DNA of 64,000 nt, taken from the NCBI GenBank assembly GCA_903813345.2, contig CAIIXF020000002.1:13846150-13910149 (forward strand), read 5' to 3'. The position numbers and the translations under genes are program-made. Each line of letters starts with the position of its first letter. Position 1 is the stretch's first letter. This DNA is from Owenia fusiformis (taxonomy: Eukaryota; Annelida; Polychaeta; Sabellida; Oweniidae). The notes beneath the pieces were generated by a model. That model saw only the letters and a program-made list of their open reading frames with translations, did no database searches and was not told the DNA's origin. This document shows, one piece after another, positions 1-62,671 of the stretch.

Positions 1-2786
1 GGTTTGGGTAATGTGAGACATGAGTTGCTACTTTTTGAATCTCATATTCAATATTCTTTCTTTAAACCCTCATATTTTTAATATTTTTGGAGTGGTAATT
101 CAATTATTTACCTATTTGTTATCCCATTGAACAAATTTCGGAGGGATATAGGGAACGCCTTCGTCCATCCGTCTGTCCGTCCGTCCGTCGGTCCGTCCGT
201 CCATCCGTCCGGGCAATAACTCAAATACCGTTGGCCCGATTTTGTTCATATTTTGTACACATATACCCTATGGGAGTAGAAGTCCTGCTCGAAAGCCGAT
301 TTTCAAAATGGCCGCTCATTTCAAAATGGCGGCCATTTTAGTGCTGAATTTACAGTAATTTAGCTGCAATATGTAAAACTGTAATAGCAATATGTTTTAG
401 ATGTAAAAAAATTATATAGGACATTAATGAAGCTAGAAATGTAGATATTAAAGAAGCACATGGCAGCCATCTTGAAAAATGGCGGCCTTTACTCGTTATT
501 TTACGATTTTTGCTGTAACTCGAAAAGTAGTAGAGCGATTTTGTTCATATTTATCCCATTGAACAAAGTTCGGAGGGATATAGGGAACGCCTCCGTCCGT
601 CCGTCTGTCTGTCCATCCATCCGTACGTACGTACGTCCGTCCATCCGTCCGGTCAATAACTCAAATACCCTTGGCCTGATTTTGTTCATATTTTGTACAC
701 ATATAATCAAAATGGCCGCTCATTTCAAAGTGGCGGCCATTTTAGTGCCGAATTTACAGTCATTTAGGTGCAATATGTAAAATTGTAATAGCAATATGTT
801 TTAGATGTAAAAAAATTATATAGGACATTAATAAAGCTAGAAATGTAGATATTAAAGAAGCACATGGCAGCCATCTCGAAAAGTAGGGTACGATTTTGTT
901 CATATTTGGTATGTGAATACTACCAACATTGCACACTGTCTAAAGACACTTGTGGTACAAGGCGGCCATTTTAAAAAATGGCTGCCATTTTGAAAAATGG
1001 CCACCATTTAAACGTATTTTACTATAACTCAAAAAGTAGTGGAGCCATTTTGTTCATATTTGGTATGTGAATACTATAAGCATGACACACTGTCCTATGA
1101 CACTTTTGGTAGAAGGCGGCCATTTTGAAAATTTTTTGAAAAATGGCCGCCATTTTAACGTATTTTACTATAACTCGAAAAGTAGTGAAGCGATTTTGTT
1201 CATGTTTGGTATGTGAATACTATAAGCATGGCACACTGTCTAATGACACTTTTGGTAGAAGGTGGCCATTTTTACTCGAAAAGTAGTGGAGCGATTTTGT
1301 TCATATTTGGTATGTGAATACTAGAAGCATGACACACTGTCCTATGACACTTTTGGTAGAAGGCGGCCATTTTTCAAAATGGCCGCCATTTTAACGTATT
1401 TTACTATAACTCGAAAAGTAGTGAAGCGATTTTGTTCATATTTGGTATGTGAATACTTTAAGCATGGCACACTGTCTAATGACACTTTTGGTAGAAGGCA
1501 GCCATTTTTCAAAATGGCCGCCATTTTAACGTATTTTACTATAACTCGAAAAGTAGTGGAGTGATTTTGTTTATATTTGGTATGTGAATACTATAAGCAC
1601 GGCACACTGTCTAATGGCACTTTTGGTAGAAGGTGGCCATTTTGAAAAAATTTTAACGTATTTTACTAACTTGAAAAGTAGTAGAGCGATTTTGTTCATA
1701 TTTGGTATGTGAATACTATAAGTATGGCACAAGGTCTAATGATACTTTTGGTAGAAGGCAGCCATTTTTGCTATATACTTTATTTGTAAAAATGCCATCC
1801 ATGGCTGTTCGATGGGATTCGCTACGCTTTGGCGTTGCCGTTGTTCTGGTTATTCTTTATCCCATAGTTGGGTAACATGAAAACATATTTATGATATTTT
1901 GCAAATGCGTGGAAAAAGTGATATCTGAGGAATACGGAAAATATTTCACAGATACCATCTTTTGCCAGGGATTTGAAAGCGACCACCAATATGATGTGTT
2001 GTTACATAGTGATTTCATGACATCAGGGGGATGAATGGATGTTGTTTTGATGTTTTGTTTAGTTTTATAGGTAAACTATTGGATAAATGGAACATCCTAA
2101 GAATTTTCGTGATATAGTGTTAATCCACTCATTGATATCAATATCTGCACTATTTCGCTATTTGTAACTTGGCAAGATATTGATATCAACTTGGAGATAA
2201 AATCATTTAAAATCATACGATATCCTGTATATATCCTTTACTGTGCCACAACTTTCTTATATGTTATATTTTGGCAGAGGCCATCATTTATTTTCTTTGA
2301 ATTCATGCTTTTGTTCCTCGTTTTAGAAATGAAAGGACATCTTTGATTTTCCTTGTATTTAAGTTGTTTAAATGTTGCCCTGTGATGTTGATAAAAGTCA
2401 ATAGCAATCCATTACAGTCACAGTCGAAATGTACCCATTGCTCGTCCAGAACCTACCAAAATAGCATTTGCATTTTGCCAATATGTGCTTTTCCATGAAA
2501 ATAGTTTTAATCATATCTTTTCTTCAGTATTTCATATATTACATTTTAATATATTTAAATTGGTTTATATTTATATATTATATACTTAGACAACAATAAA
2601 TAAAGATTTTTTGTAAAAACACCAAAATTGGTATATGATCTTTAAATGACTGTTGTGTGAACATCAAAGCTCAAAATTTGCTGAAATTGTAATTTTATAA
2701 AGCACAAATGATTTTTCTTCAATATGATATGCATTATTATCAGATATCTTTGGGGGCTAAAAAGGGCCCTTAATGACACCCGTCCT
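1..2786. mobile_element. Right part of a 2.3-kb TIR element, split by a HINE-like insertion
   Basis: Bases 1-119 and 1851-2786 match 18078-18200 and 18208-19179 closely, base for base over long runs. The right end (GGCCCTTAATGACACCCGTCC) is the same as that of the complete copy at 16921-19179, so this is the right half of the same element, cut by the window edge. It is interrupted by a family A element (120-1849). No protein is evident. Confidence 0.8.
120..1849 (+). mobile_element. HINE-like (Helentron-associated) element, family A, copy 1
   Basis: The 5' end is the hairpin-forming TATCCCATTGAACA.../GAGGGATA, followed by a (CCGTCCGT)n microsatellite and then tandem units of about 125 bp built on CAAAATGGCCGCCATTTT palindromes. 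The 3' end has the inverted copy GTTCGATGGGAT, a stem GCTACGC-TTTG-GCGTTGC and terminal CTGG followed by T. A second complete 5' end starts near 548, so the 5' half is duplicated. The site without the insertion is seen at about 18198-18210. It carries no coding capacity; the short ORFs here lie in the repeats. Confidence 0.8.
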
Positions 2787-3341
2787 TTGACAAAAAGTAG
2801 GACTTGGTCATTTTCAGGAAACTTTCTCATGTATAAAGTCAATGGCAGGTTTTGTGATTGAAGTTTGATTGAAGTTTCTCAAAGTTTGCCTTATACTTGA
2901 TCATTTCTTGCAATGAATTACATTATTACTAGATTTAAGCATTCCCTACATATCGCTCAATATATGTCAGCATCAAATTTTTACCGTTTTTGAGATATTT
3001 GACGTCAAAAAACAGTAAAAATAAGTTATTTTTCAGCTTGCTTCAATTTGACCAAATTTTTTGGGAAAATCATCTACAAGTTGCCAGGAGTTCAAATCTG
3101 ACATTAGTTTTAGGATTTGACCTTTACTTGACCTTCAGTGACCCTCGAAAGGTCAAAATGTTGATTTTTCAAATTGATTTTTGGATCTAAATTTTGGTCA
3201 GCTCAATCACAAAAGACCTTACTGAGCTCTGAATAAGTAAAATTTTCAAGGTCAAAGGTCATCAAACTAGGTCACACAACTGTGCTATCTAAGTTTCTTA
3301 AAGATCTAATAGCAAAGGTTTTGCAAAAATGAATCAATATA
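2787..3341. other. Intergenic or intron sequence, diffuse repeat
   Basis: Repeat-derived sequence rich in AAGGTCAAA-type motifs ('CTTGCTTCAATTTGACC' at about 3038). It resembles 7380-7560 and 16535-16780 and is probably the degraded interior of family D or G elements. No gene seen. Confidence 0.4.
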
Positions 3342-4964: not shown

Positions 4965-5097
4965 TAGTTTAAAAGAAATGTACATATAATGAAGAAATAA
5001 ATATATAATGAAAAAAATAGGATATGTGTTTGTAATATTGGTATAACTTGAGATTAAAAAGTGTCACCATCTCTTTCATTTTTCAACAAATATAGGC

Positions 5098-6138: not shown

Positions 6139-6828
6139 CTAGCGCGATACAGGAAAAATGGGGAATCTCGAAACAACAATATTTGGGCACTTTTATTGCA
6201 AATTTCAGGTATTTATAAGTGTTTGTGGTATAAAATATCATCCACAGACATAAATGAACATCCAAACTACATATTTTATTAAGTTTTGAAGCCTTTTTTT
6301 TGCTCTTAAATTAACATCTTTAAAGTTCGAGGCTACAAATCCAAATCAATATTTTTGTTTGAAAGTCAGGATATACATTCCTCTGAAGGTTCCACACTGT
6401 GTGAGCACAGGACCATGGGTCCTTTATTGTGGGGTATATTTTGGTACCCCAGTATTTGGTTTAAGCAGGGTACTCACATATTAGCGTATTGATATTTATT
6501 ACTATATCATGTCATGCGGTGACATATAGTTAATAGTCTCCAACTTGTGGGCAGTGTTCGCCCATCGGCATCTGTAACAACTTCTTAATATTTTCAATAA
6601 CTTTACAAGTACTGTTTAGACTGACTTCAAATTTTTACTGTGAGCATATGTTACAGTGTTATATGAGTTCCAATACATTTCTGCCAATATCTGTCACCAT
6701 GGCAACAAATAAGTCAATTTCTTACATTTTGTTTCAAGAAGTAGTTTTCACATGGATTTGAAATTATTGTTGTCTAACAGAACACATATAGAAATTTTAC
6801 AACTTTTAACATATTTTTATCGCACTTT
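6139..6828. other. Non-coding sequence
   Basis: AT-rich sequence with one possible degraded HINE 5' hairpin (ATGTCATGCGGTGACAT at about 6509). Nothing else recognised. Confidence 0.3.
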
Positions 6829-7170
6829 CAAATAGTCCTATATTGTCGTTGTCTTTTTCTGATGGGCATGTGAGCAGGCACCATTTGAATCAATTCTTGT
6901 CAACAAAATTCCAGGAAAACTGCTAACCTGTTCAGCTTGAAATAATAACAGATGCAAGAGCAGACTAGTGCCAAGATCTTATTAGGTTAAGGGCATGCTG
7001 GGTAAATTACTTGTTGGCCATTTTGAATTTTTCAATGAATCTTGTCATCAAAATTCCAGAAAAACAACTTATCCGTTCAACTAAAAAGATTCTACAGATG
7101 CAAAAGCAGGCTAGTGCTAAGATCAGATTAGTTTTGCTCTTTAAAGTGCGATATTTATTAGTGTTGTAAC
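6829..7170 (+). mobile_element. HINE-like element, family F, short copy
   Basis: 5' TATCGCACTTT at 6829 is exactly complementary to AAAGTGCGATA at 7143-7153. The 5' end is followed by TATTGTCGTTGTC, like families B and C. Between them are two tandem units of about 150 bp (TTCCAGGAAAAC..., GGCCATTTTGAATTTTTC). The 3' palindrome is not clear. A second 5' fragment is at 9951. Confidence 0.5.
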
Positions 7171-7224: not shown

Positions 7225-7575
7225 TACCACCAAAAAGTGGTGACATATTGTTATGGTCTTCATTTTTTGTTAAGGCGGATGGTGATTGGCGATTGGCATC
7301 TCAAACAAATTCTTATTACTTCCAATAACTTAACAAATACTTTTTAGACTAAAAAATCATCTTCCAGTTTTCTGAAGTTCAACTCAGACTTAAGATTTAA
7401 TATTCAATCTTTTTTCAACTTGCTTCAAATTGACCAATTTTTTTTCAAAATCATCTACAAGTTCTCAAAAGTTCAAATCTGACTATAGATACGAGATGAC
7501 CTTCTCAAGGTCAAAAATGATTCATAATATTGTGAGCAACCAGGTGGTGACATTTTGTCATGTTAATGCTTTGTT
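7225..7575 (+). mobile_element. Possible HINE-like element, family G
   Basis: 5' hairpin CCACCAAAAAGTGG followed by TGACATATTG; 3' motif AGGTGGTGACATTTTGTCAT at about 7542, repeated at 8220 and in related form at 16765. The layout parallels family B, but both ends are eroded. Confidence 0.35.
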
Positions 7576-8275
7576 AATCCTGTTTTCAATGCTCACCCTA
7601 CAATGGCCTAGGTATTGTAAATCACGAGTTGTCTGTATCTACCAATTCAAAGCAGAAACTTACAGTTAATTGCGACAAAAATTTAAATATTCTGAAAAAC
7701 CTTTATTTTCTCTTTCCATAATGTATCCCGCCATAGGCTGTTTCAGGACCAAAATTGATAAGTGCATTGTATCAAAAGCGGAGTTCAAGTCACATATCCC
7801 ATCCTCTGTCGATGGAAATCCAAATGATTTCCCTTATATTGAAAGTATATTTGCCTGTCAGCATCGATAATTTTCATTTTCACTGACATGGCAGTTTTTC
7901 ATTTCTGGCATTTCTAAATAAGGAAATCAAAAAATAAACTCTATAATATTTCATTTAAATTAGATTTAGTACTCATATTCATTCAAATAAAAAACAAATA
8001 ATACATGGAAAAATCATTTGTACAAAGTGTGACACTATATCGGAGACAAATTCTATAACACCTTAGCGAGACGATGCGATGACTACATGAGTATATCTGC
8101 ACCACTAATATTTATCACTGTGTGTCTTGGCAGTTTCAGTTACCATGGCAATGAATATATATTTCCATGGAAACAAATTATTTGTCTTGAAGCACTTTTC
8201 ACTTTTTTCAATGGCAACCAGGTGGTGACATTTTGTCAAGTTAATGCCTTATCTCTATGTCTGTTAGCAAGTTAA
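7576..8275. other. Non-coding sequence
   Basis: AT-rich sequence without protein motifs. It holds a second copy of the family G 3' motif (AGGTGGTGACATTTTGTCA) at about 8220. Confidence 0.3.
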
Positions 8276-8823: not shown

Positions 8824-8996
8824 TCATCATTCAAAAACCCATTCCCACAGTCTAGAAAGCAGATAGAAGTGACTCTTGGTGTGAAGCCAGACAGAAAGAC
8901 CATAGCAATGTTGCTAGGCCCTGGTGAGAGGAGAGACCTACATGTGGGCTTCACACCTACCAACAGCAGAACAGTCACTTCACTTATACTCATCAG
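8824..8996 (+). CDS. TMEM131: TMEM131 homologue, internal exon 1 of 8 in window
   Basis: This exon encodes 57 complete residues (partial-protein residues 1-57) plus two bases of an Arg codon. The residues resemble the lumenal region of TMEM131/TMEM131L, notably 'LGPGERRDLHVGFTPTNSR' followed by 'SLILIR', a conserved family stretch that I recognise from memory of the human proteins. A pyrimidine-rich tract ending in TTTTCAG precedes it and GTAACT follows it. It ends in phase 2, which fits the next exon (Arg, then NNLTVID). The family is a single-pass ER/Golgi membrane protein whose lumenal PapD-like and Ig-like domains bind procollagen. Earlier exons must lie before the window; I saw none between 1 and 8823, where repeats dominate. 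Whether this is the orthologue of both vertebrate paralogues cannot be told here. Confidence 0.9.
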
Positions 8997-9933: not shown

Positions 9934-9950
9934 TAGCACTTTACTTTTAT

Positions 9951-10130
9951 TATCACACTTTTTCAAAGTGCAATATTGTTGTCATTTTGCACTGATAAAT
10001 ATGTGTGGCAATAAAACATGGCATACATTTTGAATTTTCGCAGTAATCCTATCTCAAAGTTCCAGGAGAACTGTTTATCCTTTCAACTTGAAAATCCAAG
10101 AGCAGACTACTCACTGCTACTGATAATGTA
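9951..10130 (+). mobile_element. Family F HINE-like 5' fragment
   Basis: TATCACACTTTTTCAAAGTG forms a hairpin and is followed by CAATATTGTTGTCATTTTGC. The interior (TTTTCGCAGTAATCCTATCT, then AACTGTTTATCCTTTCAACTT) resembles 6880-7100. The 3' end is absent. Confidence 0.5.
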
Positions 10131-13306: not shown

Positions 13307-13514
13307 TGAATATGATTGTATTGTGTGTTTTCATAGTTTGGAGTTAGTCTTATTATTTTTTTGTAGTGGATTATCTTTTTGTAGTGGATAAACCTCGTAA
13401 TATGTCATGCCTTGATACTGTTGTCAATAAAAGAAAAAATTACATGTATTGTAATTTCTTCTTTTACTTGTATGTACTATTCTGATTATGATATATTACT
13501 TTATGATATTGCAG

Positions 13515-13648: not shown

Positions 13649-13761
13649 GTAAGTTTGATGATCTCCTTCCAATTGTAAACAATTGAAGTGTCAAAAGATT
13701 TCATCTTAGGAAATACTTAAAATGTATTTATTAGCTTTTGTCTCTTCTTTTTTTTGCTTTT

Positions 13762-13889
13762 GTCAGTATTCTTATGAGAATACTATTGCTTTTGTCAGTA
13801 TTCTGATGAGAATACTATTGCTTTTGTCAATATTCTTATGAGAATACTATTGCTTTTGTCAGTATTCTGATGAGAATACTATTGCTTTT
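13762..13889 (+). repeat. 32-bp hairpin array, left part (4 units)
   Basis: Four units start at 13762, 13794, 13826 and 13858, each containing the palindrome AGTATTCT(T/G)ATGAGAATACT or the AATATTCT variant. The spacing is exactly 32 bp. Confidence 0.85.
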
Positions 13890-15323
13890 TATGTCCCCAC
13901 CACATAGTGTGGGGCCATATTGTCGGCCTAGGCGCGTCCGTCTGTCTGTCCGTCCGTCTGTCTGTCCGTCTGTCTGTCCGTCCGTACGTCCGGGAGTTTT
14001 CTCCAAAACTCGATACCTACTTCCTGTCGGCCATTTTGAAGTCAAATGCTAAAATCCTTGTCTGCAAACTTTAAGAAAAACGGCTTCACAGTTGCTTTTA
14101 AAACTTTAACATCTTGTTCAGCTCACTTCATTCTAGATCTGATTAGGTTTTGGACCTGTTAGCTCAGTCATGTCAGCCATTTTGAATGTTTTAAGAAAAG
14201 TTAGCGCACGATAATACTTTGTATCATATTGAATGGTGTTTTTCAGTTTTCATGCTTTAACTTTTTAGTAGCTTTATAAATAATTTCAGGTGTACTTTGT
14301 TGTAAAAGCTTATGTTATTGTTAACAGTAGGTATATGTGATAATTTTGTAAAAAGATTTCAGCAAAAACTCATAATCACTTTTTTATTGTCAGCCATTTT
14401 GGATTTTTCCGTCCTAAAATCTTGTCTGTAAAGTCTTGTCTACGCGTTTTCAGGTGAACCGTTTGGTAGATCAATTTCAAATTTTCAGGGATGATTCTTA
14501 GTATGAGAATCTAGATCTGATTAGTTTTTGGGCATTCTGGGTAAATGTCAAGGCAGCCATTTTGGATTTTCCGTCCTAAAATCGTGTCTGTAAAGTCTTG
14601 TCTACGCATTTTCAGGTGAACCGTTTGGTAGATCAATTTCAAATTTTCAGGGATGATTCTCAGTATGAAAATCTAGATCTGATAATTTTAACGGCATTCT
14701 GGATAAATGTCAAGGCAGCCATTTTGGATTTTCCGTCTTAAAATCTTGCCCGTAAAGTCTTGTCTACTCGTTTTTAGGTGAACCGTTTGGTAGATCAATT
14801 TCAAATTTTCAGGGATGATTCTTAGTATGAAAATCTAGAACTGATTAGTTTTTGGGCATTCTGGGTAAATGTCAAGGCAGCCATTTTGGATTTTCTGTCC
14901 TAAAATCTTGTCTGTAAAGTCTTGTCTACACATTTCCAGGTGAACTGTTTGGTACATCAATTTTAAATTTTCAGGGATGATTCTTAGTATGAAAATCTAG
15001 AACAGATTAGTTTTTGGCATTCTGGATAAATGTCAAGGCAGCCATTTTGGATTTTCTGTCCTCAAATCTTGTCTGTAACGTCTTGTTTACATGTTTTCTG
15101 GTTAACTGTGTGAGGGATCAATTTCAAATTTTCAGGGGTGGTTCTTAGTATGAAAATCTAGAACTGACTAATTTTTTGTCATTCTTGGTAAATATTAAGA
15201 TGGCCATTTTGGATTCTCCGTCCTCAAATTGTGTCGGTAAAGTCTTGTCTACTCATTTTTAGGATAATCATTTGACAGGATTACCCATAGGTGGGGACAT
15301 ATTGTACACATTTGTGTTCTTGT
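13890..15323 (+). mobile_element. HINE-like element, family B, copy 1
   Basis: 5' TATGTCCCCACCACATAGTG continues as a hairpin (CCCCAC...GTGGGG) and CCATATTGTCGGC. A CCGTCTGT microsatellite follows, then about six tandem units of roughly 180 bp (GCCATTTTGGATTTTCCGTC, AGGTGAACCGTTTGGTAG). 3' GGTGGGGACATATTGT (inverted copy of the 5' end), palindrome ACACATTTGTGT, terminal TTCTTG before T. Removing it rejoins the 32-bp array exactly. Confidence 0.85.
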
Positions 15324-15555
15324 GTCAATATTCTGATGAGAATACTATTGCTTTTGTCAATATTCTTATGAGAATACTATTGCTTTTGTTAGTATTCTTA
15401 TGAGAATACTATTGCTTTTGTCAATATTCTTATGAGAATACTATTGCTTTTGTCAATATTCTTATGAGAATACTATTGCTTTTGTTAGTATTCTTATGAG
15501 AATACTATTGCTTTTGTCAGTATTCTTATGAGAATACTATTGCTTTTGCGAGTAT
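15324..15555 (+). repeat. 32-bp hairpin array, right part (7 units)
   Basis: Seven further units of the same 32-bp repeat resume directly after the family B element. The last one passes into GTATTCTTATTCTTTTTC, the family D body. Confidence 0.85.
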
Positions 15556-16920
15556 TCTTATTCTTTTTCTTCTTCCACCCAAGTTTTCTCGCTAACTAGA
15601 AGAGCTTACTTCAAACAGCTTACATGGTTAACTATTTATCGGCAATGATGAGAAATTAGGTCAAATTTTTTATCTAGGTCAAAGGTCAAGAACTAGATCA
15701 AATCTTAAAATTTCAACATTCTGTCATTTATCTTCTTCGTTGTTTATTGTATTGCCTTAATCTTTTTTTCATCACGTAGCTTAGAAAATTACCTCCAGGA
15801 AAAGCACTCATAGAGATGATAAAATAATCATCTAGCTTTTTAGCCTTTTGCCGTCACAAAGTATTTTGACCCCCTTTTGAGATTTGGTGTCCGAAAAGAA
15901 GGTCAAAATAAAAAGTTCTCCAAATTTAATGTGTTAGTTATGCCATAAGGGTAAGGAATCCAAATCCGCAAACCAAATTTTGATCTGGCTTCCGATTCAG
16001 AAGTTGTGATGTTTTGAAATCCCGAAAAGTCAATATGATCGATGATATCCCCATGTTAAGTCAATGGCAGGAACTTGATCAGCATCTAAGTTACTTATTC
16101 AGCTTCTTACTCAGCCACATACTTAGTTACTTACTCAGCTACATACTGGGCTACCTAATCAGCTTATTACTGAGCTACTTACTCAGCTATCTAGGTCAAA
16201 TCAATCTGGATTCTTGAAAAGAACTTTTTTCAATTTACCATTCTAGTTCTTCCTACTCTTCTTCCAAGCAAGTTTTCTCGCCAACTAGAAGAGCCTTCTC
16301 TATACAGCTGACATGGTTAGTTAATAAATGTGTCTGCGATGATGGAAATTAAGTAAAATTTGTATCTAGGTCAGAGGTCAAAAACTAGGTAAAATCTTTA
16401 GTTTTTTACTATTTTACCACTTTTCTCAGTCATCTTTTTTTGTATTTTTTCTCAGTCTTTTTTTCATCATGTCCCTTGAAAGCATTCCAATAGGCACCTT
16501 CAATGACCTCCTCATGGTAAATAAGGTCAAAAGGTCTTTTTTCAACTTGCTTCAAATCGACCAATTTTTTTCAAAATCACCTATATGTTCTCAGCAGTTC
16601 AAATCTGACTTTCGATTTGAGACTTCACCTTCAATGACCTTCTCAAGGTCAAAAAGGGTGTTTTTTCAACTTGCTTCAAAATTGGCCATTTTTCAAAATC
16701 ATCTACAAGTTCTCAGAAATTCAAATCTGACTTAAGATTGAACTCATTTTATTGTGACCGACTAGATGGGGACATTTTGTCATGTTAATGCCAAAATCGA
16801 TAGCCAGGAGAATGCTTATAGTATTAGCCTGTTGATGTCAGGAAGTCAGGAAGTTATTTGACCCACTTTTTAGATAGAATAGGTGTCTGAAAAGTAGGTC
16901 AAAATAGAATGTTCTCCAAA

Positions 16921-19355: not shown

Positions 19356-20985
19356 CCTACTCAGTTACTTACTCAGTTACTCACTCAGTTACTTACTCAG
19401 CTACCTACTCAGCCTTTTATTCAGTTACTTACTCACTTACTCAACTACAGGGTGGTCAAAAAAACGGAAACCCTGCATTTTCCTCATATCTTTTCTCATG
19501 TCATTTTAAGAAATTACTCCCTGATATTTCACACATTTGTAAATCATTCAATTTCCTACCACCCTACCATATTTCATAACCATCAGACTGATAGTCACAA
19601 TTTTACAGCACTTTTAAAAACATGCTTCGGGTTTGGCCATGATCACGCTGGAGGCAAACCTGCACAGGTGTCAATGATCCAAATGCATTCCTCAGCAGGT
19701 ATGGCCTGAATGATACAGATGATCTCACTTTTGAAGTCTGCAATTGTCCTGGGGTCATTATTATGCACTCTATCTCTGCCATATCCCCATAGGTAGGGAC
19801 ATTTTGGACGACATATGCAGGTTGGTCTTCAACGCAAAAGTGGCCACCGGGAATGTTCTTTAAAGTGCTGTAACACAGTGACTATCAATCAGATGGTCAT
19901 GAAATATGGTAGGCTGGTAGGAAATTGAGTGATGTACAAATGTGCAAAGTTATTTCTTAAAATAATAAAGATATAAGGAAAATGGTGTAAGGGTTTCCAT
20001 TTTTTTTTACCTCCCTGTACTACTCAGCTACTCACTCGGTTACTTACTCAGCTACCTACTCAGCCTTTTATTCAGTTACTTACTCACCTACTTACTCAAC
20101 TACTACTCAGCTACTCACTCAGTTACTTAATCAGCTACCTACTCAGCCTTTTATTCAGTTACTTACTCACCTACTTACTCAACTACTACTCAGCTACTCA
20201 CTCAGTTACTTACTCAGCTACCTACTCAACCTTTTATTCAGTTACTTACTCACCTACTTACTCAACTACTACTCAGCTACTCACTCAGTTACTTAATCAG
20301 CTACCTACTCAGCCTTTTATTCAGTTACTTACTCACCTACTTACTCAACTACTACTCAGCTACTCACTCAGTTACTTACTCAGCTACCTACTCAGCCTTT
20401 TATTCAGTTACTTACTCACCTACTTACTCAACTACTACTCAGCTACTCACTCAGTTACTTAATCAGCTACCTATTCAGCCTTTTATTTTTCAGTTACTTA
20501 CTCACCTACTTACTCAACTACTACTCAGCTACTCACTCAGTTACTTAATCAGCTACCTACTCAGCCTTTTATTCAGTTACTTACTCACCTACTTACTCAA
20601 CTACTACTCAGCTACTCACTCAGTTACTTAATCAGCTACCTACTCAGCCTTTTATTCAGTTACTTACTCACCTACTTGCTCAACTACTACTCAGCTACTC
20701 ACTCAGTTACTTAATCAGCTACCTACTCAGCCTTTTATTCAGTTACTTACTCACCTGCTTACTCAACTACTACTCAGCTACTCACTCAGTTACTTAATCA
20801 GCTACCTACTCAGCCTTTTATTCAGTTACTTACTCACGTACTTACTCAAGTACTACTCAGCTACTCACTCAATTACTTACTCAGCTTCCTACTCAGCCTT
20901 TTATTCAGTTACTTACTCACCTACTTACTCAACTACTACTCAGCTACTCACTCAGTTCCTTAATCAGCTACCTGCTAAGCCTTTT
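19356..20985 (+). repeat. TACTCAG satellite, about 84-bp units
   Basis: Arrays of CAGTTACTTACTCAGCTAC type at 19356-19446 and 20020-20985, the second with about 11 units of roughly 84 bp (GCTACTCACTCAGTTACTTA, then CAGCCTTTTATTCAG). Each unit is itself built of about 12-bp TACTCAG steps. A mariner-type MITE separates the two parts. Probably the internal microsatellite of the surrounding family D element, as in 51339-51726 and 59838-60005. Confidence 0.85.
19448..20017. mobile_element. Mariner/Tc1-type MITE inserted in the satellite
   Basis: CAGGGTGGTCAAAAAAACGG at the left and its imperfect complement ending ACCTCCCTG at the right lie between TA dinucleotides that belong to the satellite (TCAACTA/TACTACTC). 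The inverted repeat extends nearly 190 bp per arm. On the minus strand the centre reads like a transposase C-terminus (DFKSEIICIIQAIPAEE, about 19690-19750), typical of IS630/mariner relatives, with stops. Confidence 0.8.
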
Positions 20986-20990
20986 AGTAA

Positions 20991-29937: not shown

Positions 29938-30148
29938 AATAGAGAAATATTGATGTGAAGAGTCCAATGTTTCCTGTACATTTTCAAATTACGCTGACTG
30001 TACAAAAATCCATGTTTAGTTTTTGACTGTCAAAATGTCAACATCCCATGGTAATCTTAAGTTCGTGTAATATTTTCTCATGGGGCGAAGAAGGGGGTAC
30101 GGCTTAACCTTGAAGAAAAAGTACTATACTTTCAAATCTGGCCCAACG

Positions 30149-39788: not shown

Positions 39789-40103
39789 CAGGGATGTTTC
39801 TACATATCAAAGTTAACAACTGATTAGTTTTTGGGCATTCTGGGTTAATTTTGAGGTGGCCATTTTGGATTTTCCGTCCTAAAATCTTCACTTTCAAGAC
39901 TTGTCTACAGGTTTCCAGCCAAACCATTTGATGGATTCATCTGAAATTTTCAGGGATGTTTCTACGCATCAAAGTTAAGAACTGATTAGTTTTTGGGCAT
40001 TCTGGGTAAATTTTAAGGTGGCCATTTTGGATTTTCCGTCCTAAATTCTTCACTGTCACACTGCTGTGTTTTAGGTACGATATTGTTCACGTCTGTGCCT
40101 TGT

Positions 40104-42993: not shown

Positions 42994-43768
42994 TATCATA
43001 CTTAAAAAAAGTATGATATTGTCATCAGCTTGGCAGTCAGGCGGCAAGATATCACACTTGTCATCGCAATTCCATGCAGGAGAACCACTTAACCTAATTA
43101 CTTCAAATGTTTACACATGTTACATGGTTAGAAGTTCTAGATCTGATTAACTTTTGGTGGCCATCTTGCATTCTGGTAGCCATTTCGGAAGTTTTTAGAT
43201 AAATCTTGTCATCGCGATTTCATGAAAATCACTTATAGGATTTTCTTCAAATTTTTACACATGTTACATGGCAAGAAGTTCTACAGCTGATAATTCTTCG
43301 GTGGCCATCTTGTTTTCTGGTGGCCATTTTGGAAGTTAGATAAATCTTGTCATCACGATTCCAGAAATACCTCCACAGAATTACTTCAAATTTTCATCAT
43401 GGTAAGAAGTTCTAGAGTTGATTTACTTTTGGCTGCCATAATGCTTTCTGGCGGCCATTTTGGAAGTTTTTATTAGATAAATCTTGGGGTCACAATTCCA
43501 GGAAAACCACTTCAAATTCTTACCATGGAAAGAAGTTCTAGACATGATAACTTTTCGGTGACCATCTTTCTTTCTGGCGGCTATTTTGGCTACATAAATC
43601 TTATCAGAATTCCAGGAAAACCACAACTGAATTACATGTACTTCAAATTTTGACATATGTTATATGGTAGGATGTTCTAGAGCTGATTAACTTTTTGTAG
43701 GCCATCTTGCTTTCTGGGTCAACAAGCCCGCACTGCTATATTTTAGATATGATATTGTTCACCCTTTT
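42994..43768 (+). mobile_element. HINE-like element, family C, copy 2
   Basis: 5' TATCATACTTAAAAAAAGTA forms a hairpin and is followed by TGATATTGTCATCAGCTTGG, as in copy 1. About four units of roughly 140 bp follow (GAAGTTCTAGA, GGCCATCTTG, AATCTTGTCATC). The 3' end TAGATATGATATTGTTCACC is eroded. It stops about 53 bp before the exon 4 acceptor. Confidence 0.65.
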
Positions 43769-43821
43769 TACCAAACATCCTTTATTTTGGATTGAAAAAA
43801 GGAATTTTTTGTTGATTGCAG

Positions 43822-47489: not shown

Positions 47490-47773
47490 AGTTTGGCCAT
47501 TGTCTTATGACATTTTGGCTAGTAGGTGGCCATTTTGAAAAGTGGCCATCATTTACAGTTACATGTGTGCAATTTTGTTGAAATTTTACATGTGCCTACA
47601 TAGAAGCATATTACACTTTCTAATGACAATTTGTCTAGTGAGCAACTATTTTGAAAATGGTGGCCACTTTTTTGTGTGTTATTTTATGATTTTTGCTATA
47701 TACTTCGTTTGTAAAAATGCCAGCTATGGCTGTTCAATGGGATTTGCTACACTTTGGTGTTGTTATTGTCTAG
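47490..47773 (+). mobile_element. Family A HINE-like 3' fragment
   Basis: Family A interior (GTCTTATGACATTTTGGC, GGTGGCCATTTTGAAAA) ends in TGTTCAATGGGAT, the stem GCTACAC-TTTG-GTGTTGT and CTAG before T. The 5' hairpin is absent. Confidence 0.65.
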
Positions 47774-48084: not shown

Positions 48085-49812
48085 GAATACTACTAGCATT
48101 TTGTTTTGTTTACTCAGTGAACTATTCATTCTTAGCTTATCACTTTTCTCAACAACCATTCGGTCTTCAGTCAAGACAGTCATATGGCCAATTAAGGACC
48201 TGTTTTGGGATCTCAGAAATTGGGTCAAATTTTCATCTAAGTCAAAGGTCAAGAATTAAATCTTACATTTTCAACATTCTGTCATTTATCTTTGTTGTTA
48301 TTTAACGTAAGTCTTTGATCTTTTTTCATCATGTAGCCAAATCGAGGCTGTGCCATACGTTTTTCAACATATGAGTTATGAAATTGGTGTAGAATCTTCT
48401 CAGGAAAGAATTCAAATCTGCAAACCAAATTTTGATTTGACATCGGTTCAAAAGTTATGGCATTTTAAAGTCTCAAAAATTGCTGTTTTGGTGTACAATG
48501 TTAAGTCAATGGGACTGGAAAAAATATGAATTATAAAAACACGTGATTCAGACTAAATGCAGCTAATATAATGAATGCCTACAACAGAAGTAGACCTCAA
48601 AAATCTACTCTGCTTTAAAATTTGGACACTAAAAGGCATAGGTCAAATATTTAGTTTTTTGCAATTCTGACACTATACTTTCAAAACATTCTGAAATTTG
48701 GTATACTGATAGCTAAAAGTAAGCTTATAGTGATAGTTTTTTTGCAGTCAGAAAGTATTTTGTCCCGTTTTTGAGATATGGGGTCTGGAAAGTAGGTCAA
48801 AATAAAATGATTTTCAAATTTAATGTGTGAGTTATTAAATAAAGGTGAAATTTCAGGAATCAGAATCTGCAAACCAAATTGCGATCCAACTTTCGGTTCG
48901 GAAGTTATGGCATTTTGAAAAATTCAAAAAACTTCAAAAAAGCCAAGGTCAAATTTTAGGTCAAATTCATGTTTTTTCTTATTTTTGCAAATCTGACACT
49001 ATACTTGAATGATATTTTTCTAAATTTGGTATACAAATAGCAAAATGTATGCTAATAGTGTTAGCCTTTTTAGTATTTTGACCCAATATGATGTCCAAAA
49101 ATTAGGCCAACATAAAAAGTTCTACAAATTTAACGTGTGAAAACAATTTTCTCAGGAATCTGAATCTGCAAACCAAATTTCAATCCGTCCTCCGGTTCGT
49201 AAGTTATGGTATTTTGAAATCTCAAAATGTTGATATGGTGATTTCCCTATCGATATGGCGCAAACTTCAGCTATGGAATCAAATTAGATAGGAGAATGAC
49301 TGCAATAAGAAGAATCATTTAAGCCAAATAAATTCAAGATTACTTACATAAATTTCTTTAAAATTTAGTATAGAAATAGATAAAAGTATACTTATAGTGT
49401 TAGCCTTTTACCCCTGAAAGTATTTTGACCCAGTTTTGAGATAAGCATCCAAAATGTAGGTCAACAAAAAGATCTCAAAAATCAATGTGTAAGGTAGCAT
49501 AAATAAGAAATTTTCTCTGGATTCCGAATCTGAAATCAGGATTGATAATTCGACTTATGGTTTGGGATCTATTACCTTTTAAGGTCAAAATTGTGAAATT
49601 TTCATAGTTATTTTCTTTTAGTTTAAAATAGGTTAAAAATGATAAAGAGGACCAAAAATCATAAGTCAAGTCAAAATTTTGAACATCTTGGGTCAAGTCC
49701 AGGTCAAGTTCAATCCAGTCCATCCTTTTGTCTAAAACATGTCTGTCTAAAAACCACAGAAGATCTGTCATCTGGAGTCTGAAATTGAACTTGTTCAATT
49801 TAGAATGTCTAG
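48085..49812 (+). mobile_element. Family D HINE-like copy, upstream of a tandem pair
   Basis: Family D interior (AGGTCAAAGGTCAAGAA, GGAATCAGAATCTGC, TTCGGAAGTTATGGCATTTT). The 3' end is CTGGAGTCTGAAATTGAACT, palindrome AATTGAACTTGTTCAATT and CTAG at 49809-49812. No 5' hairpin. Confidence 0.65.
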
Positions 49813-49820: not shown

Positions 49821-51822
49821 AAACTCCAGATGAAATCTGGAGTCTATTGTTTTTGCCTCTTTTCTTTATTCTTTCTTATTTATTCTTATTATTTTACTGA
49901 GCAAGTTTTCTCAACAACTATAAGGTATCAAATCAAGATTATTATATGGTCAATTAAGGTACTATATCTAGTTGGTGGGAAATGGGGTCAAATTTTTATC
50001 TAGGTCAAAGGTCAAGAACTAGGTCAAATATTACATTTTCAACCTTCTGTCTATTATCGTCGTCATTATTTATCGAAACATCTTCATCTTTTTTCATCGT
50101 GTAGCTTAGAAACAGCCCTTTCATAAGTGTGCCATCCGTTTTTTGATTACTCTTGATTTTGAAATATGGCGTCCAGAAAGTAGGTCAAAATAAAAAGTTC
50201 TTCAAATTTAACATATGAGTTATGAATTAAGAGTAGAATTTTCTCAGGAATCCGAATCTGCAAACTGAATTGAAATCTGACTTCCGGTTCAGAAGTTATG
50301 GCATTTTGAAAACTCTAAAATCGCTAAATTTGGTGCCCCATGTTACTTCAATGGGAAAAAAATATTTTTTGAAGTGTAAAATACAAGATATAGACTGAGT
50401 ACAGCTTAATATAATGAAAGCCTATGAAAGAAGGGGACCTCGAAGGCTACTTAGCTCCAAAATTTGGACACCAAAATCCCTAGGTTAAAATCTAGGTCAA
50501 ATTCCTAGTTTTTCCTTATTTTTGCAATTCTGACACTACACTTAAATTATATTCTTCGAAATTGTGTATATATGTAGCCAAGAGTGTGCTAATAGTGTTA
50601 GCCTTTTGCCGTCAGAAAGTGTTTTGACCCACTTTTGAGATATGGTGTCCGAAAAGTAGGTCAAAATAAAAAGTTCTCCAAATTTAACATATGAGTTATG
50701 AATTAACGATAGAATTTTCTCTGAAATCCGAATCTGCAAACCAAATTTCGATCCGACTTCCGGTTCGGAAGTTATGGCGTTTTGAAAGCTCAAAAATCGC
50801 TAAATTTGGTGCTATGTCAATAGGAAAAAAGATTTTTTTGAAGTGTAAAATAAGAGATATAGACTGAGTACAGCTTAATATAATGAAAGCCTATGAAAGA
50901 AGGGGACCTTGAAGGTTACTAAGCTCCAAAATTTGGACACCAAAATCCCTAGGTCAAAATCTAGGTCAAATTCAAAGTTTTTCTTATTTTTGCGATTTTG
51001 ACACTACATTTAAATGATTTGCTTCAAAATTTTTTATACAGATAGTAAAGAGTGTGCTAATAGTGTTAGCCTTTTGCCGCCAGAAAGTATTTCAATCCAC
51101 TTTTGAGATATGGTGTCCGAAATGTAGGTCAAAATAAAAAGTTCTCTAAATTTAACGTATGAGTTATGAATTAAGGGTAGAATTTTCCCAGGAATCCAAA
51201 TCTGCAAACCAAATTTCACTTCCACTTCCGGTAAAGAAGTTATGGCGTTTTGAAATTTTGAGAAAAATCAATCTGATGATAGCCTTATAGAAAGTCAAGA
51301 GAAGTGAAGAAAAATACCAGTGCAGTACATTTTTAGGTACAAGTCCAGGTCCAAGTCAGGTCCAGGTCTAAGTCCAGATCAGGTCCAAGTCCAGTCAAAG
51401 TTCAGGTTCAGGTCCATGTCCAGTCTGGTTCCAAGGCCAGTCCAGTTCTAAGTCCAGTCCAAGACCAGCCCAGTTTCAATCCAGCCAAGGTCCAAGTCCA
51501 GTCCAAGGCCAGTCTAAGTCCAGTCCAGGTCCAAGTCCATGTCTGAATCTAGTCAAAGTCCAAGTCCAGTCAAAGTCAAAAGCCAGTCCAATCCAGGTCC
51601 AAGTCCTTGCCAATGTCTAGGTCCAAATCCAGGTCCAAGTCCAGTCCAGGTCCAACTCTAGACCAGGCCAGTTTTAAGTCGAAGTCCAGGTCAGAGTCCT
51701 GTCAATGTCCAAGTCCAGTCCAGTCTGTCCTTCCATCCATCCGTCCATCTGTCTGTCTAAAAAACCCTGAAGATCTGTCATCTGGAGTCTGAAATTGAAC
51801 TTGTTCAATTTCCCCAGTCCAG
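49821..51822 (+). mobile_element. Family D HINE-like element with 5' hairpin
   Basis: It starts 9 bp after the previous copy ends. The 5' hairpin ACTCCAGATGAAATCTGGAG is followed by TCTATTGTTTTTG. The AGGTCAAAGGTCAAGAACTA body contains repeated GTTATGGCATTTTGAAA and CCGAAAAGTAGGTCAAA units. A GTCCAGTCCA microsatellite, then ATCTGGAGTCTGAAATTGAA, palindrome and CCAGTCCAG before TT. Confidence 0.75.
51339..51726 (+). repeat. GTCCAGTCCAAG microsatellite in family D
   Basis: Degenerate six-base GTCCAA/GTCCAG repeat occupying the position taken by TACTCAG and CTATCC repeats in other family D copies. Confidence 0.85.
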
Positions 51823-54166: not shown

Positions 54167-54983
54167 TATCCCAACAAACTAAGTTTGTTAGGGATACAGT
54201 GAAGCCCTTCATCCGTCTGTCAATTGATCTGTCCATCTATCAGTTTGAAAAAGACTTTTCTTCATATTTGGTGCAAAAAAGTATATTGGTGATTCTAACA
54301 TGATATGTGATGCTACATTATCTAGAACAATTAATATACTGGATTATCCCATACTTATTAGTGAACTTATAGGTAAATAACATGCGGGAATATAATCGAT
54401 ATCTGAGGTGAGCGGGTGATATATACAGTGCGTATCAAAAAAACTACAACAGATTGTTATCTTGGAAAAGCACAAAACCAGTGATAACAGCATTGATTTC
54501 ATTCAATGCACCATAAAGCCATGTGTCTCCTCTTTACAATGATATATCATTCATTGATATTTGGTCATGGTTGGGTGAGTAATCATTTGGTTGAAATTTT
54601 ATATGATTATGCCTAGGGACACAGTAGCTCTGTTCAAGAAATAATTTTCAAGATGGCGGCTGAATTTCAAGATGGCGGCCAGATTTCGTAAAAAACGTAA
54701 TCTTTGATAACTCATATACCAGTGAACGGATTTGGTTCAAATTTTATATGATAATGCCGAGTTCACAATGGCATAAACTAACTTTGTGCCAAAGTTCATG
54801 CTTCTATCACAAAGTGCACAAACATTTCAACATTTACACTAGCTATAATAAGCATAACATGTTTTGTTCGGTGGGATTTGCTACTCTGTGGAGTTGCTGT
54901 TTTTCTAGTATTGTGACATATTTCATAATTCATGAATGATTTATTTGTTGGGATTGGCTACTCCGTGGGGTTGCTATTTCTAG
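54167..54983 (+). mobile_element. HINE-like element, family A variant, with doubled 3' end
   Basis: 5' hairpin TATCCCAACAAACTAAGTTT/GTTAGGGATA. Two 3' ends: GTTCGGTGGGAT with stem GCTACTC-TGTG-GAGTTGC and CTAG at 54905-54908, then TTTGTTGGGAT with stem GCTACTC-CGTG-GGGTTGC and CTAG at 54980-54983. The last inverted repeat (TTTGTTGGGAT) is exactly complementary to this element's own 5' end. A mariner-type fragment lies at about 54421-54600. Confidence 0.7.
54421..54600 (+). repeat. Mariner-type terminal fragment, inverted relative to 57230-57400
   Basis: CAGTGCGTATCAAAAAAACT is a mariner-like start. CATTCAATGCACCATAAAGC and CTCCTCTTTACAATGATATA recur in reverse complement at 57265-57370. Confidence 0.55.
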
Positions 54984-56430: not shown

Positions 56431-56439
56431 TTCGCAAAT

Positions 56440-58367: not shown

Positions 58368-58654
58368 CACAGGCAAATTATATCAAACCTTGTACACTGT
58401 ACAAGCTTGAGGGAGGCGAAGGTACCTGCAGGGGGCTCATTTTCGAGGCCTGTACTTCTGTAATCATAATTTCAAGGCCTGTGGAAGCATGAACAAGGTT
58501 CGTGATTTTAAAATTGAGGCCTGTGCGAGCATGTTCGAGGATCGTAATTGAAAAAAGAAATCAGTAATATCATTGATCACTTATATTCTTATTAGAATGC
58601 CGTGTTTCGAAGAAACGGCATTCTATAGTTTTCGCCTTTTTCTTATTTTTATTA

Positions 58655-60134
58655 TTAGACTCCAGATATCAATCTGGAGTCTATTGTTTTCGTCAGTATT
58701 CTTCTTTATTATTATTTTTATTATTCTTTATTATTCTTTCCCAGTTTTCTCGTTAACTAGAAGATATTGAGTCAAGTCTTATATATGGTCCATTTAGGTC
58801 CAGAATCTTGTTCCTCGGAAATTGGGTCAAATTTTTATCTAGGTCAAAGGTCAAGAACTAGGTCAAATCCAGTACTTTGTCACTTTTTTCGATTTTCTCG
58901 GTCGTCCTTCAATATTTTCGATCCGGGTTTTTTTCATTGTGTTCCTTATAAAAAAGTAGGAAACCTAGGGTCGATTTAGTTTTTTGATATCTCAAACCGA
59001 TTTCGAGATATCAGTGTCCGAAAACGAGGTCCAAAAAAAAGTTCTTCGAATCAAATGTCCAGGATATTAGTCTTATAGGAAATTTTCTCAGGATTCCGAA
59101 TCTGAAAACGAAATTTGGATCTAACTTCCAGTTCGGAAGTTATGGCGTTTTGAAAACTCAAAAATCGCTAAATTTGGTGCCCATGTTAAGTCAATGGGAA
59201 AAAATATTTTTTTGAAGTGAAAAATACGGAATATAGACTGAGTTCAGCTTCATATAATCAAAGCCTTTAAAAGAAGGGGACCTCAAAAGCCATCTAGCTT
59301 CACAATTTGGACACCGAAATGCCTAGGTCAAAATCTAGGTCAAATTCATAGGTTTTCCTTATTTTTTCGATTCTGACACTACACTTTAATTATATTCTTC
59401 GAAATTGCGTATACATGTAGCCAAGAATATGCTAATAGTGTTAGCTTTTTGCCGTCAGAAAGTATTTTGACCCACTTTTGAGATATGGTGTCCGAAAAGT
59501 AGGTCAAAATAAAAAGTTCTCCAAATTGAATATATGAGTTATGAATTAAAGGGAAGAATTTTGTCAGGAATCCGAATCTGCAAACCAAATTTCGATCCGA
59601 TATCCGGTTCGGAAGTTATGGCGTGTCCGAAAAGTAGGTCAAAATAAAAATTCGCCAAATTTAACGTATGAGTTATGAATTAGGGGTAAAATTTTGTCAG
59701 GAATCCGAATCTGCAAACCAAATTTCGATCCGACTTCCGGTTCGGAAGTGATAGCGTTTTGAAATTTCGAGAAAAATCGATCTGATGGTATCCTGATAGA
59801 AAGTCAAGAGTAGAGAAGAAAATATTGAAAAATTCATCCATCCTCCTATCTCATCCTACCCTATCCTTCCTATCTATCCTTCCTTCATATCTTTTCCTTC
59901 CTATCCTTCCTATCCTATCCTATCCTTTCTTCCTATTCTATTCTATCCTATCCTTCTTTCTTATTCTATCCTATCGTTCTTTCCTATTCTATCCTACCTT
60001 CCTATTTTATTTATCCATCTCTTTCTAGATGACTCAGCTTATTCTGGATGACTCGGCTTATTCTGGATGACTCGGCTAAAAAAAGTCTAGATCTGGAGTC
60101 TGAAATTGAACTTCGTTCAATTTCCAAAATCTAG
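58655..60134 (+). mobile_element. Family D HINE-like element nested in family E
   Basis: 5' hairpin AGACTCCAGATATCAATCTG/GAGTCT, CTATTGTTTTCGTCAG, body with AGGTCAAAGGTCAAGAACTA, a CTATCCTTCC microsatellite, 3' CTGGAGTCTGAAATTGAACT, palindrome AAATTGAACTTCGTTCAATT(T), and CTAG at 60131-60134. It lies entirely within 58593-62612. Confidence 0.8.
59838..60005 (+). repeat. CCTATCCTTCCTAT microsatellite
   Basis: Degenerate CTATCC/CTTCC repeat in the family D body, matched by 61250-61420 in the next copy. Confidence 0.85.
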
Positions 60135-61543
60135 TTATTATTATTATTATTCTAAGCACGTTTTCTCAATAACCGTAAGGTTTTCAGTAAAGTCAGTCAT
60201 TTGGTCAATTTAGGTCCAGAATCTAGTTCCTCGGAAATTGGGTCAAATTTTTATCTAGGTCAAAAGTCAAGAATTAGGTCAAATCCAGTACTTTGTCACT
60301 TTTTTCGATTTTCTCGGCCGTCCTTCAATATTTTCGATCCGAGTTTTTTTCATTGTGTTCCTTATAAAAAAGTAGGAAACCTAGGGTCGATTTAGTTTTT
60401 TGATATCTCAAACCGTTTTCGAGATATCAGTGTCCGAAAACGAGGTCCAAAAAAAAGTTCTCCGAATCAAATGTCCAGGATATTAATCTTATAGGAAATT
60501 TTCTCAGGATTCCGTATCTCAAAACGAAATTTCGATCCGACTTCCGGTTCGGAAGTTATGGCGTTTTGAAAACTCAAAAATCGCTAAATTTGGTGCCCAT
60601 GTTAAGTCAATGGGAAAATATATCTTTTTGAAGTGAAAAATACGGAATAAAGACTGAGTTCAGCTTCATATAATCAAAGCCTTTAAAAGAAGGGGACCTC
60701 AAAAGCCATCTAGCTTTAAAATTTGGACACCGAAATGCCTAGGTCAAAATCTAGGTCAAATTCATAGGTTTTCCTTATTTTTTCGATTTTGACACTACAC
60801 TCTAATTATATTCCTCGAAATTGTGTATACATGTAGCCAAGAATATGCTAATAGTGTTAGCCTTTTGCCGTCAGAAAGTATTTTGACCCACTTTTGAGAT
60901 ATGGTGTCCGAAAAGTAGGTCAAAATAAAAAGTTCTCCAAATTTAATATATGAGTTATGAATTAAGGGTAGAATTCTGTCAGGAATCCGAATCTGCAAAC
61001 CAAATTTCGATTCGACTTCCGGTTAGGAAGTAATGGCGTGTCCGAAAAGTAGGTCAAAATAAAAAATCTCCAAATTTAACGTATGAGTTATGAATTAGGG
61101 GTAGAATTTTGTCAGGAATCCGAATCTTTCAATCTAATTTCGATCCGACTTCCGGTTCGGAAGTTATGGCGTTTTGAAATTTCGGAAAATCGATCTGATG
61201 GTATCCTGATAGAAAGTCAAGAGTAGAGAAGAAAATGTTGAAAAATTCATCCATCCTTCCTATCTGATCTTATCCTATCCTTCCTTTCTATCCTTTCTTC
61301 GTATCTTTTCCTTCCTATCCTTTCTTCGTATCTTTTCCTTCCTATCCTATCCTTTCTTCCTATTCTATTCTATCCTATCCTTCTTTCCTATTCTATCCTA
61401 TCCTACCTTCCTATTTTATTAATCCATCTATTTCTAGCTGACTCAGCTTATTCTGGATGACTCGGCTTATTCTGGATGACTCGGCTAAAAAAAGTCTAGA
61501 TCTGGAGTCTGAAATTGAACTTCGTTCAATTTCCAAAATCTAG
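60135..61543 (+). mobile_element. Second tandem family D body without 5' hairpin
   Basis: It begins directly after the CTAG of the preceding copy (TTATTATTATT, CTAAGCACGTTTTCTC) and repeats it almost base for base, including the microsatellite (61250-61420) and the 3' palindrome, ending in CTAG at 61540-61543. Only the 5' hairpin is missing. Confidence 0.8.
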
Positions 61544-62671
61544 TTATTATTATTATTCAACACAAGATTTCTCCGCACACACCGACATGTCAGCTAATTA
61601 GCATATACCATCAACCTTGACATGTTCCTGGGCTACAGGGAAATGCCTTCATTTTTTTAATTAGCCCCTCCCTAATTAGCCAAGGTCAAATCGCAAATTT
61701 TTACATTTTTGCACCATTTTTATTTTTTACCCAAAATTTGCATATGCCATCCCTCACAATTGCCATTTCACATATATTCCGGGTTTTAAAATTGGGTGCC
61801 CCAAATTTGAAAAATGGGGCACCCCAGTGGGGCAAAATTTGAAAACTGTGTATCCGATCCCAATTCTGAGCAGATATAAAGAATAGAAGCCCCTGATTCC
61901 AAATATGCTTTCGGTTTTGGAATCCGACCTCTGAGTGACCTTGAAAAGGTCAACAAGTTCAAAAATCAAAATCGCTCAAATTGATTCCAAATTGGTACCA
62001 TTGTATTACACTGTACTCGGATAGAGTAAATTAGGTCACCATTTTGACCTTGACCTTTGACATTGACCTTCAAATGACCTCAAAGTTGAAAACTAGGATT
62101 TTCATTCCAATTCTTTGCAAGTATGAAGTATGGATGTCCCTGATTCTAAATATGCTTGTGGTTTTGGAATTTGACCTCCGGGTGACCTTGAAAAGGTCAA
62201 AAAGGTTAAATTGCTAAAATTGCTCAAATTGATTCGAAATTGGTACCATTGTATTACACTGTACTAAACTAGAGTAAATTAGGTCAACATTTTGACCTTG
62301 ACCTTTGACCTTCACCGTAAAATGACGTAAAACTTATTTCTTGTTTTACCTGTTCAAGGAGCCACTGTAGTTATTTTTTGCATGCCTTACTTTTCCCATT
62401 TAACATATCTCTAGGGTTTATAATTTGGGTGATTTTCATTCCAATTCTTTGCAAGTATGAAGTATGGATGTCCCTGATTCTAAATATGCTTTCGGTTTTG
62501 GAATTCGACCTCTGCGTGACCTTGAAAAAGGTCAATTGTGCACCGAATTTGCTGCTGCGGCGAGGAACGGCATTCTACGAAATCGCCCCCGTGGCGATTT
62601 TAAATGTCTAGTTATTAATGCCATTTTGAATTGCCCACGGTGATGGTGCATTGCATAATAGGTAATGAGAT

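Follow-up and report, generated by a model that had tools for sequence, protein, structure and literature searches.

Interspersed repeat families in the introns of a TMEM131L-like gene of Owenia fusiformis are very probably Helentron derivatives, and two of them have autonomous partners with matching ends

The annelid Owenia fusiformis carries several families of interspersed repeats in the introns of a TMEM131L-like gene, which we analysed in a 64,000-base window of its 498-Mb genome (C2:13846150-13910149; "the window" denotes this whole stretch). These families, designated A to F and H, are very probably Helentron-associated interspersed elements (HINEs), that is, non-autonomous Helentron derivatives that are copied by rolling-circle transposition and recognised by Helentrons with matched ends. 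The explanation is based on the element ends, on two autonomous partners bracketed by such ends (families B and H), and on insertion sites with two extra bases, transposition itself being deduced from sequence alone. In the proposed layout, a well-kept HINE would comprise a 5' head with a hairpin and a microsatellite, satellite-like central repeats, and a 3' tail formed by a copy of the hairpin's right arm, with a palindrome that is clear in some families and with CTTG or CTAG/CTGG before T. An earlier reading of this DNA (the original prediction) had assigned families A to F to such a Helentron/HINE layout, and this identity was borne out by the Rep-PIF1-endonuclease genes found between B and H ends and by the insertion sites; a seventh family, H, was recognised in addition.

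Across the genome, the PF14214 (Helitron_like_N) profile gave 58 Rep matches, 39 of them in frames of at least 1800 amino acids and 23 in frames of at least 3000, and only a few of these loci were read out to the element ends. The autonomous B Helentron (C1:4661045-4673245, 12,201 bp) holds an uninterrupted frame of 2053 amino acids between a B head and a B tail, and the autonomous H Helentron (C6:5172599-5184714, 12,116 bp), which starts with ATGTCACCACCAAAAGTGGTGACATATTGTTATGG and ends with GGTGGTGACATTTTGTCATGTTAATGCCTTG, holds an uninterrupted frame of 2508 amino acids. The H head was identical in all three copies read (on C6, C10 and C11), as was the H tail. Each of the two autonomous elements contains the central repeats and both ends of its own HINE. 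Almost the entire initial 1091 bp of autonomous B can be aligned to the two better B copies in the window, at 89-93%, and the B HINEs therefore look like its deletion derivatives. Both proteins have DUF6570, Helitron_like_N and PIF1 domains, with the Rep domain (PF14214) matched at E = 2e-25 in B and E = 3e-25 in H, the PIF1-type helicase (PF05970) in the same protein as Rep, and a HUH motif that reads RGSVHSH in B and RGSPHIH in H; the H protein also matched PIF1 structures and Helraiser (7lcc). The C-terminal endonuclease of B scored above the cut-off (Exo_endo_phos, E = 1e-7). Over 1626 aligned residues the B and H proteins share 52% identity, and each is enclosed by the ends of its own family, so that two or more helicases are involved. 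The signature before the histidines is GSV in B and GSP in H, as it is in all four copies examined from the L009-L038 group, a group to which no fewer than 30 of the 58 Rep matches belong; the B and H Rep domains are about 36-45% identical to those of six members of this group.

The second line of evidence comes from the insertion sites. For eight insertions, the two flanks were fused and used as a search query; at four of these, putative empty sites were read, 17 in all. Autonomous B lies in a reverse-transcriptase-type repeat (named by eye), where nine matches span the joint and all six empty sites read were without the two T's (empty GGTTTTTTA--TTGTTAAATC versus filled CTTTTTATT joined to TTGTTAAATC). 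A gain of TT was seen for family D at locus L047 (four of four empty sites read) and at L055 (three of three spanning matches listed), and at L046 all four sites read were two bases shorter, with variable neighbours. For H on C10, which is inserted in a MITE-like repeat (MITE, miniature inverted-repeat transposable element), the arms of the window's copy read CTTATATC and CTCATATC versus the filled CTTATT followed by TATC; H on C11, inserted in an A element, has six T's versus four in two window copies, and the B element inserted in a 32-bp array of the window has six T's versus four in all ten units. Thus the seven insertions compared (two of B, three of D and two of H) always showed two additional bases, which were T's wherever the neighbours were clear, and target duplications, named in the original prediction as an observation that would speak against it, were absent from all seven beyond the ambiguous two bases. 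At L053, L054, L056 and H on C6, the fused flanks had no spanning match among the 40 candidates scored.

The heads and tails of the window were located by string search, giving heads of A (121, 553, 54168, 63597), B (13891, 34081), C (36925, 42995), D (58657), E (58594) and F (6819, 9952), and tails of A (1849, 47773, 54908), B (15322, 24482, 35564), C (40102), D (49812, 60134, 61543), E (62611) and H (7573, 8251), with H heads read outside the window only. Every family head begins with A following T, the starts being ATCCC in A, ATGTCCCC in B, ATCGTACC in C, AGACTCCAG in D, AGAATGCC in E, ATCGCACTTT in F and ATGTCACCAC in H. The right arm of the head hairpin recurs near the 3' end in A to F and in H, and the head and tail arms match within a family and differ between families. 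Tails end in CTTG before T in B, C and the autonomous H copies (in the window, both H tails have eroded, to TTTG and CTTA) and in CTAG or CTGG before T in A, D and E, the A form being GCTACGCTTTGGCGTTGC followed by CTGG/CTAG. Hairpins and palindromes were assessed by single-stranded DNA folding against 200 shuffles, using the A head from locus L076, the H ends from C6 and window strings for the others. No shuffle folded as well as the 5' hairpins of C, D, E and H (0/200 each; four of the seven heads), and the 3' palindrome was clear only in D (0/200) and E (1/200) and marginal in A (11/200). A literature search with the head sequences returned only unrelated papers among the matches listed. 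A further head type, AGGAGGCCCCATCGGGGGGCCTCCT, whole or partial, directly adjoins D elements at TTATT (L050, L051 and L057).

Families A (two loci) and E (one locus) probably have autonomous partners as well, with a reversed gene, as judged from heads and central units. At the Rep loci C5:30807401 and C4:27748878, inverted A tandem units ending in an inverted A head lie 3' of the gene, which is on the opposite strand relative to the A element; the two loci are 80% identical over 846 bases downstream of the gene, a homology that starts outside the A units (the C4 sequence read stops at the A head, so that its outer flank lies outside it). The E head string occurred at 64 places in the genome and at none in the reversed control. 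One of these heads (C12:19506455) directly precedes E units at C12:19506505-19508949, in a listing that includes no E tail piece, and the strand opposite to the E units carries a 3164-aa frame whose Rep match is at C12:19514795, with an endonuclease-like frame end seen by eye at ~19511100 (L072); this geometry is the same as that of the A loci. With all 64 places used, E heads lay within 12 kb of Rep at two of the 58 Rep matches. The other pair (C3:244274/C3:252299) was not counted, its E copy being complete with its own tail and its gene a fragment. Matches of A, B, C, D or F inside a Rep element's likely span were absent by eye among the matches listed, which shows little. The original prediction had proposed to look for one Rep-helicase partner per family; the search brought bracketed partners for B and H and probable ones for A and E.

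Several points weigh against our interpretation. No partners of C, D and F were found at the few of the 58 Rep matches where ends were read. An ordinary A or E element may have inserted beside a gene and then been copied along with it, and the C3 pair shows that proximity alone can mislead. The C-terminal endonuclease of H, in the same frame as its Rep, is weak and below the curated cut-off (Exo_endo_phos, E = 0.0015; Exo_endo_phos_2, E = 6e-4). The head hairpins of A (15/200 shuffles folding at least as well), B (31/200) and F (200/200, the tested copy not folding at all) were not clearly better than shuffles, nor were the 3' palindromes of H (30/200), B (73/200) and C (76/200). In the F copy with an inverted head at 7143-7152, neither a terminal palindrome nor a CTTG/CTAG end was recognised. 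The claims of the original prediction about element structure were accordingly confirmed in part: the described ends were found for A to E and are eroded in F, the 5' hairpin ascribed to most families stood out in C, D, E and H, and the palindrome said to close the better-kept families did so in D and E.

Heads are frequently stacked. At 10 of 18 D loci, D heads follow one another in runs of two to four (counting only heads that fit one regular expression and leaving out L057 and L058, which overlap other D loci), and E heads do so, two to four of them 53-71 bp apart, at 9 of 51 E head sites; on C11 the H element has two heads 48 bp apart, and the window's first A element has two heads 432 bp apart. 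The 32-bp array of the window (13754-13889 and 15319-15561) looks like about 12 stacked hairpin heads. Headless D bodies repeat at ~1430 bp. Close joints were also found, including a D tail-TTATT-D head (L045), a C-like tail-TTT-C head (L116) and an E element between two D heads (L086). Between heads the sequence is rich in T, as is the target seen in empty sites. The best explanation for stacked heads is that new copies insert into the T-rich sequence immediately inside an existing head and that copying then runs from the outermost head as far as the first tail. Tandem heads and headless bodies could, quite possibly, have arisen instead by unequal crossing-over or slippage between TTATT tracts, with no transposition into heads at all. 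The ~1430-bp repeat of headless bodies, which whole-element self-insertion does not give, speaks for such exchange, as does the 32-bp array, which lacks a T-to-A joint between its units; by contrast, on C11 the T-run of the first H head is followed immediately by the start of the second, the D heads of a single array are not identical to one another, and the joints of D tail to D head and of C-like tail to C head do occur. The headless bodies are better explained by unequal exchange between TTATT tracts, and both processes may be at work.

The families are not all unrelated in sequence. We aligned core units for all 21 pairs in both orientations and scored each pair against 60 shuffles: the central units of B and C align over ~300 bases (z = 31.1), and the C-F (z = 11.6) and B-F (z = 7.2) cores are homologous as well, so that B, C and F cannot be wholly unrelated in origin. 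The remaining 18 of the 21 pairs had z <= 3.6 in either orientation; A-B forward, A-E, B-H, D-H reverse and B-C reverse beat all 60 shuffles, and faint links among the other cores may exist at the level of these alignments. In addition, ATTGT lies just past the hairpin in five of the seven heads (B, C, F, H and D), a sharing with p ~ 2e-5 by a simple base-composition estimate in which B, C and F were counted once (three of seven groups); the group count rests on a by-eye reading of nine heads, two of them extra types (the 32-bp array unit and a AGGAGGCC head beside D loci). The original prediction had described unrelated families that share no obvious sequence and converge on one layout. This description fails for the B, C and F cores and for ATTGT, and a single layout inherited with the Helentron machinery is a simpler reading than convergence.

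These comparisons bear on how many helicases are at work. It is possible, though less likely than not, that two Helentron lineages coexist, differing in gene direction and in the last four bases (CTTG with a forward gene in B and H; CTAG/CTGG with a reversed gene in A and E), and that in each of them the hairpin arm may serve as a family address at both ends, read by the family's own helicase. On this account satellite cores would pass between families (B, C and F share a core and not an address), and heads would stack since the target T-run lies just inside each head. A single tolerant Helentron helicase, of B or H type, that moves all families in trans, with the end differences arising by neutral drift, appears improbable. 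It would fit the missing partners of C, D and F, the core repeats common to B, C and F, and the ATTGT motif; however, a separate helicase is bracketed by the ends of B and another by those of H, the probable partners of A and E are of different kinds again, and drift alone would not maintain head and tail arms that agree within a family and differ between families. The original prediction had left the choice between several helicases and one tolerant helicase; the B and H proteins point to several, and C, D and F may be cross-mobilised by the helicase of another family.

A reading of the elements as MITEs that belong to DDE cut-and-paste transposons and duplicate a TT or TTATT target is very unlikely: some D copies are flanked on both sides by TTATT (L046 and L047), and at most sites a 2-bp TT duplication is indistinguishable from carried T's, but the ends are asymmetric, B and H ends bracket Rep-helicase genes, and the fixed-length duplication with non-T bases expected of a DDE MITE was absent from the B, D and H insertions. 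A TTATT duplication in D was ruled out at L047, where the empty site already reads TTATTATTTTAC and the gain is TT rather than TTATT. For H on C10, the target in two diverged comparators has only one T at the point where the filled site gained two, and this speaks for T's brought along by the element rather than for a TT duplication.

If the families are indeed HINEs, their movement may proceed as follows. The Rep, helicase and endonuclease of an autonomous Helentron would recognise the same two ends and nick there, with the endonuclease and Rep opening a T-rich site and the element end; the helicase would then unwind from the head to the first tail, and the single strand would be copied and joined between T's in a T-run. 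The strand chemistry is taken from published Helentron and Helitron models, and by analogy we infer that the arm would be recognised by each family's own Rep.

Other Helentron-related loci were noted in the genome. In L059 (C6:36031060-36034059), the one member of the L009-L038 group whose upstream part was read, the Rep domain is preceded by two OTU protease stretches and a Herpes_teg_N-like match. Several unplaced contigs are rich in Helentron Rep, mostly in long frames (six matches on C13, four on C515, two on C505 and two on C158), and several Helentron proteins on unplaced contigs have an N-terminal coding repeat (KEKQKQ or KEKYEF). The ends of the L034, L019 and L038 Helentrons and of the one on C12 were not recognisable 2.5-7.7 kb past the genes, where other tandem arrays and repeats lie, and genome searches with L034 and L019 sequence showed no boundary. 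A stretch near C2:24601785 (L119) resembles the B 3' region by eye, its tail not having been reached. The locus C6:27117644 was set aside as a putative canonical Helitron on account of RPA/OB-fold-looking exons beside its Rep gene, seen by eye only (L074, C6:27111400-27114100).

The HINE copies and fragments of the window described below lie on the + strand. Family A is represented by a double-headed element at 121-1849 (GTCC-type microsatellite, ~135-bp tandem units, tail ending in TTCTGG before T), a 3' part at 47494-47773 (tail ending in GTCTAG before T), an A-like element at 54168-54908 with a head and a tail ending in TTTTCTAG before T, and a copy at 63597-64000 that continues past the window end. 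The first B element (13891-15322) is inserted in the 32-bp array, whose left part (13754-13890) reads as hairpin heads (AGTATTC..GAATACT plus ATTGCTTTTGTC) and whose right part (15323-15561) is followed by a D-like body (match from ~15505); a second B element lies at 34081-35564, with its first 1059 bases 89% identical to the start of autonomous B, and an older B-like element at 22952-24482 has a tail ending in GTGTTCTTG before T and no head found. Family C comprises an element at 36925-40102, split by ~2.1 kb at ~37692-39784, and an older copy at 42995-43770, the far end of which was set by eye. In family D, an element at 48212-49812 (tail ending in GTCTAG before T) is followed tail-to-head by a second one at 49821-51822, both ends of which are mutated and its first and last bases set by eye; a further D element (58657-61543), with one head and two tandem bodies, each tailed by AAATCTAG before T, is nested in the E element at 58594-62611. 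Family F consists of the eroded copy at 6819-7160, with a head, a core homologous to those of B and C and the inverted head copy mentioned above, and of a second head, ATCACACTTTTTCAAAGTGCAATATTGT, at 9952-9980. Family H is present at 7226-7573 (tail GTGGTGACATTTTGTCATGTTAATGCTTTG before T), at 8221-8251 (a tail with the eroded end AATGCCTTA) and at 16496-16792 (central repeats and an eroded tail, by library match).

One exon of the host gene lies at 8824-8996 (+ strand, edges by eye), with further exons near 13514, 24750, 43820, 45220, 52176, 57750 and 63360. The joined peptides of four window exons matched Pfam Ig_TMEM131L_4 and Ig_TMEM131L_5, which identifies a TMEM131L-like gene and hence places the window's repeats in the introns of one gene. 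Matches to a library of these elements, which includes the window's own copies, cover 17,369 of the 64,000 bases (27%); HINEs thus account for at least a quarter of this intron stretch, and a new kind of transposon is unnecessary. Three other repeats were observed: a MITE-like repeat at 19445-20010 with terminal inverted repeats (TIRs) near CAGGGTGGTCAAAAAAACGGAAACCCT, a related copy of which on C10 hosts the autonomous H Helentron; an 83-bp tandem repeat at 20018-20986 (11.6 copies, 96% matches) made of TACTCAGC-like words; and long inverted arms seen by eye at ~30130-32790 (CTGGAAACGAGGGAGGTTTTGCC and its complement), probably a TIR transposon.

The layout itself is already published for mites, flies and oyster, and the link to partners is the useful addition here. 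HINEs spread satellite-like repeats through invertebrate genomes, and the available part of the oyster study (PMC7492417) leaves their drivers unresolved. A single genome that offers matched pairs, HINE families together with uninterrupted-frame Helentrons sharing ends and central repeats, allows direct tests of whether a helicase reads its own hairpin arm, of T addition at insertion, and of how stacked heads and headless bodies form.

The known systems are compared here as far as the available parts of the cited papers describe them. Thomas et al. (2014, PMC4067079) defined the HINE/Helentron layout and its T-rich, duplication-free insertion. HINE-Mo/Helentron-Mo and DINE-1 resemble the present families in their subterminal inverted repeats, a palindrome near the 3' end, a T-rich target without duplication, microsatellite or tandem repeats in some copies, and a Rep/helicase/endonuclease partner with the same ends, and in one fly Helentron the gene is likewise reversed (PMC4067079); the families here are others, with two partners bracketed and two probable ones with a reversed gene. 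In the oyster Crassostrea gigas, Vojvoda Zeljko et al. (2020, PMC7492417) described 11 HINEs with satellite cores, several with GTCY-type microsatellites; these Cg_HINE elements likewise have a head subterminal inverted repeat (subTIR) with a complementary arm, a GTCY-type microsatellite, satellite-like central repeats, a 3' subTIR and palindrome, and several families with partly shared modules. The autonomous Helentrons of the oyster could, in the part of that study available, not be related to its HINEs (PMC7492417), whereas autonomous B and H carry the central repeats and both ends of their HINEs. FoHeli of Fusarium oxysporum (Chellapan et al. 2016, PMC5148889) has multiple 5' termini, for which a self-insertion model was proposed, and is alike in having tandem 5' ends with one 3' end and a gene orientation that can be reversed. 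Fungal Helitrons differ in that no endonuclease domain was found in them, according to the available part of that report (PMC5148889). In the present families, heads stack beside T-rich stretches in D, E, A and H; the addition to the Fusarium model is that the T-rich sites between heads resemble the target in empty sites.

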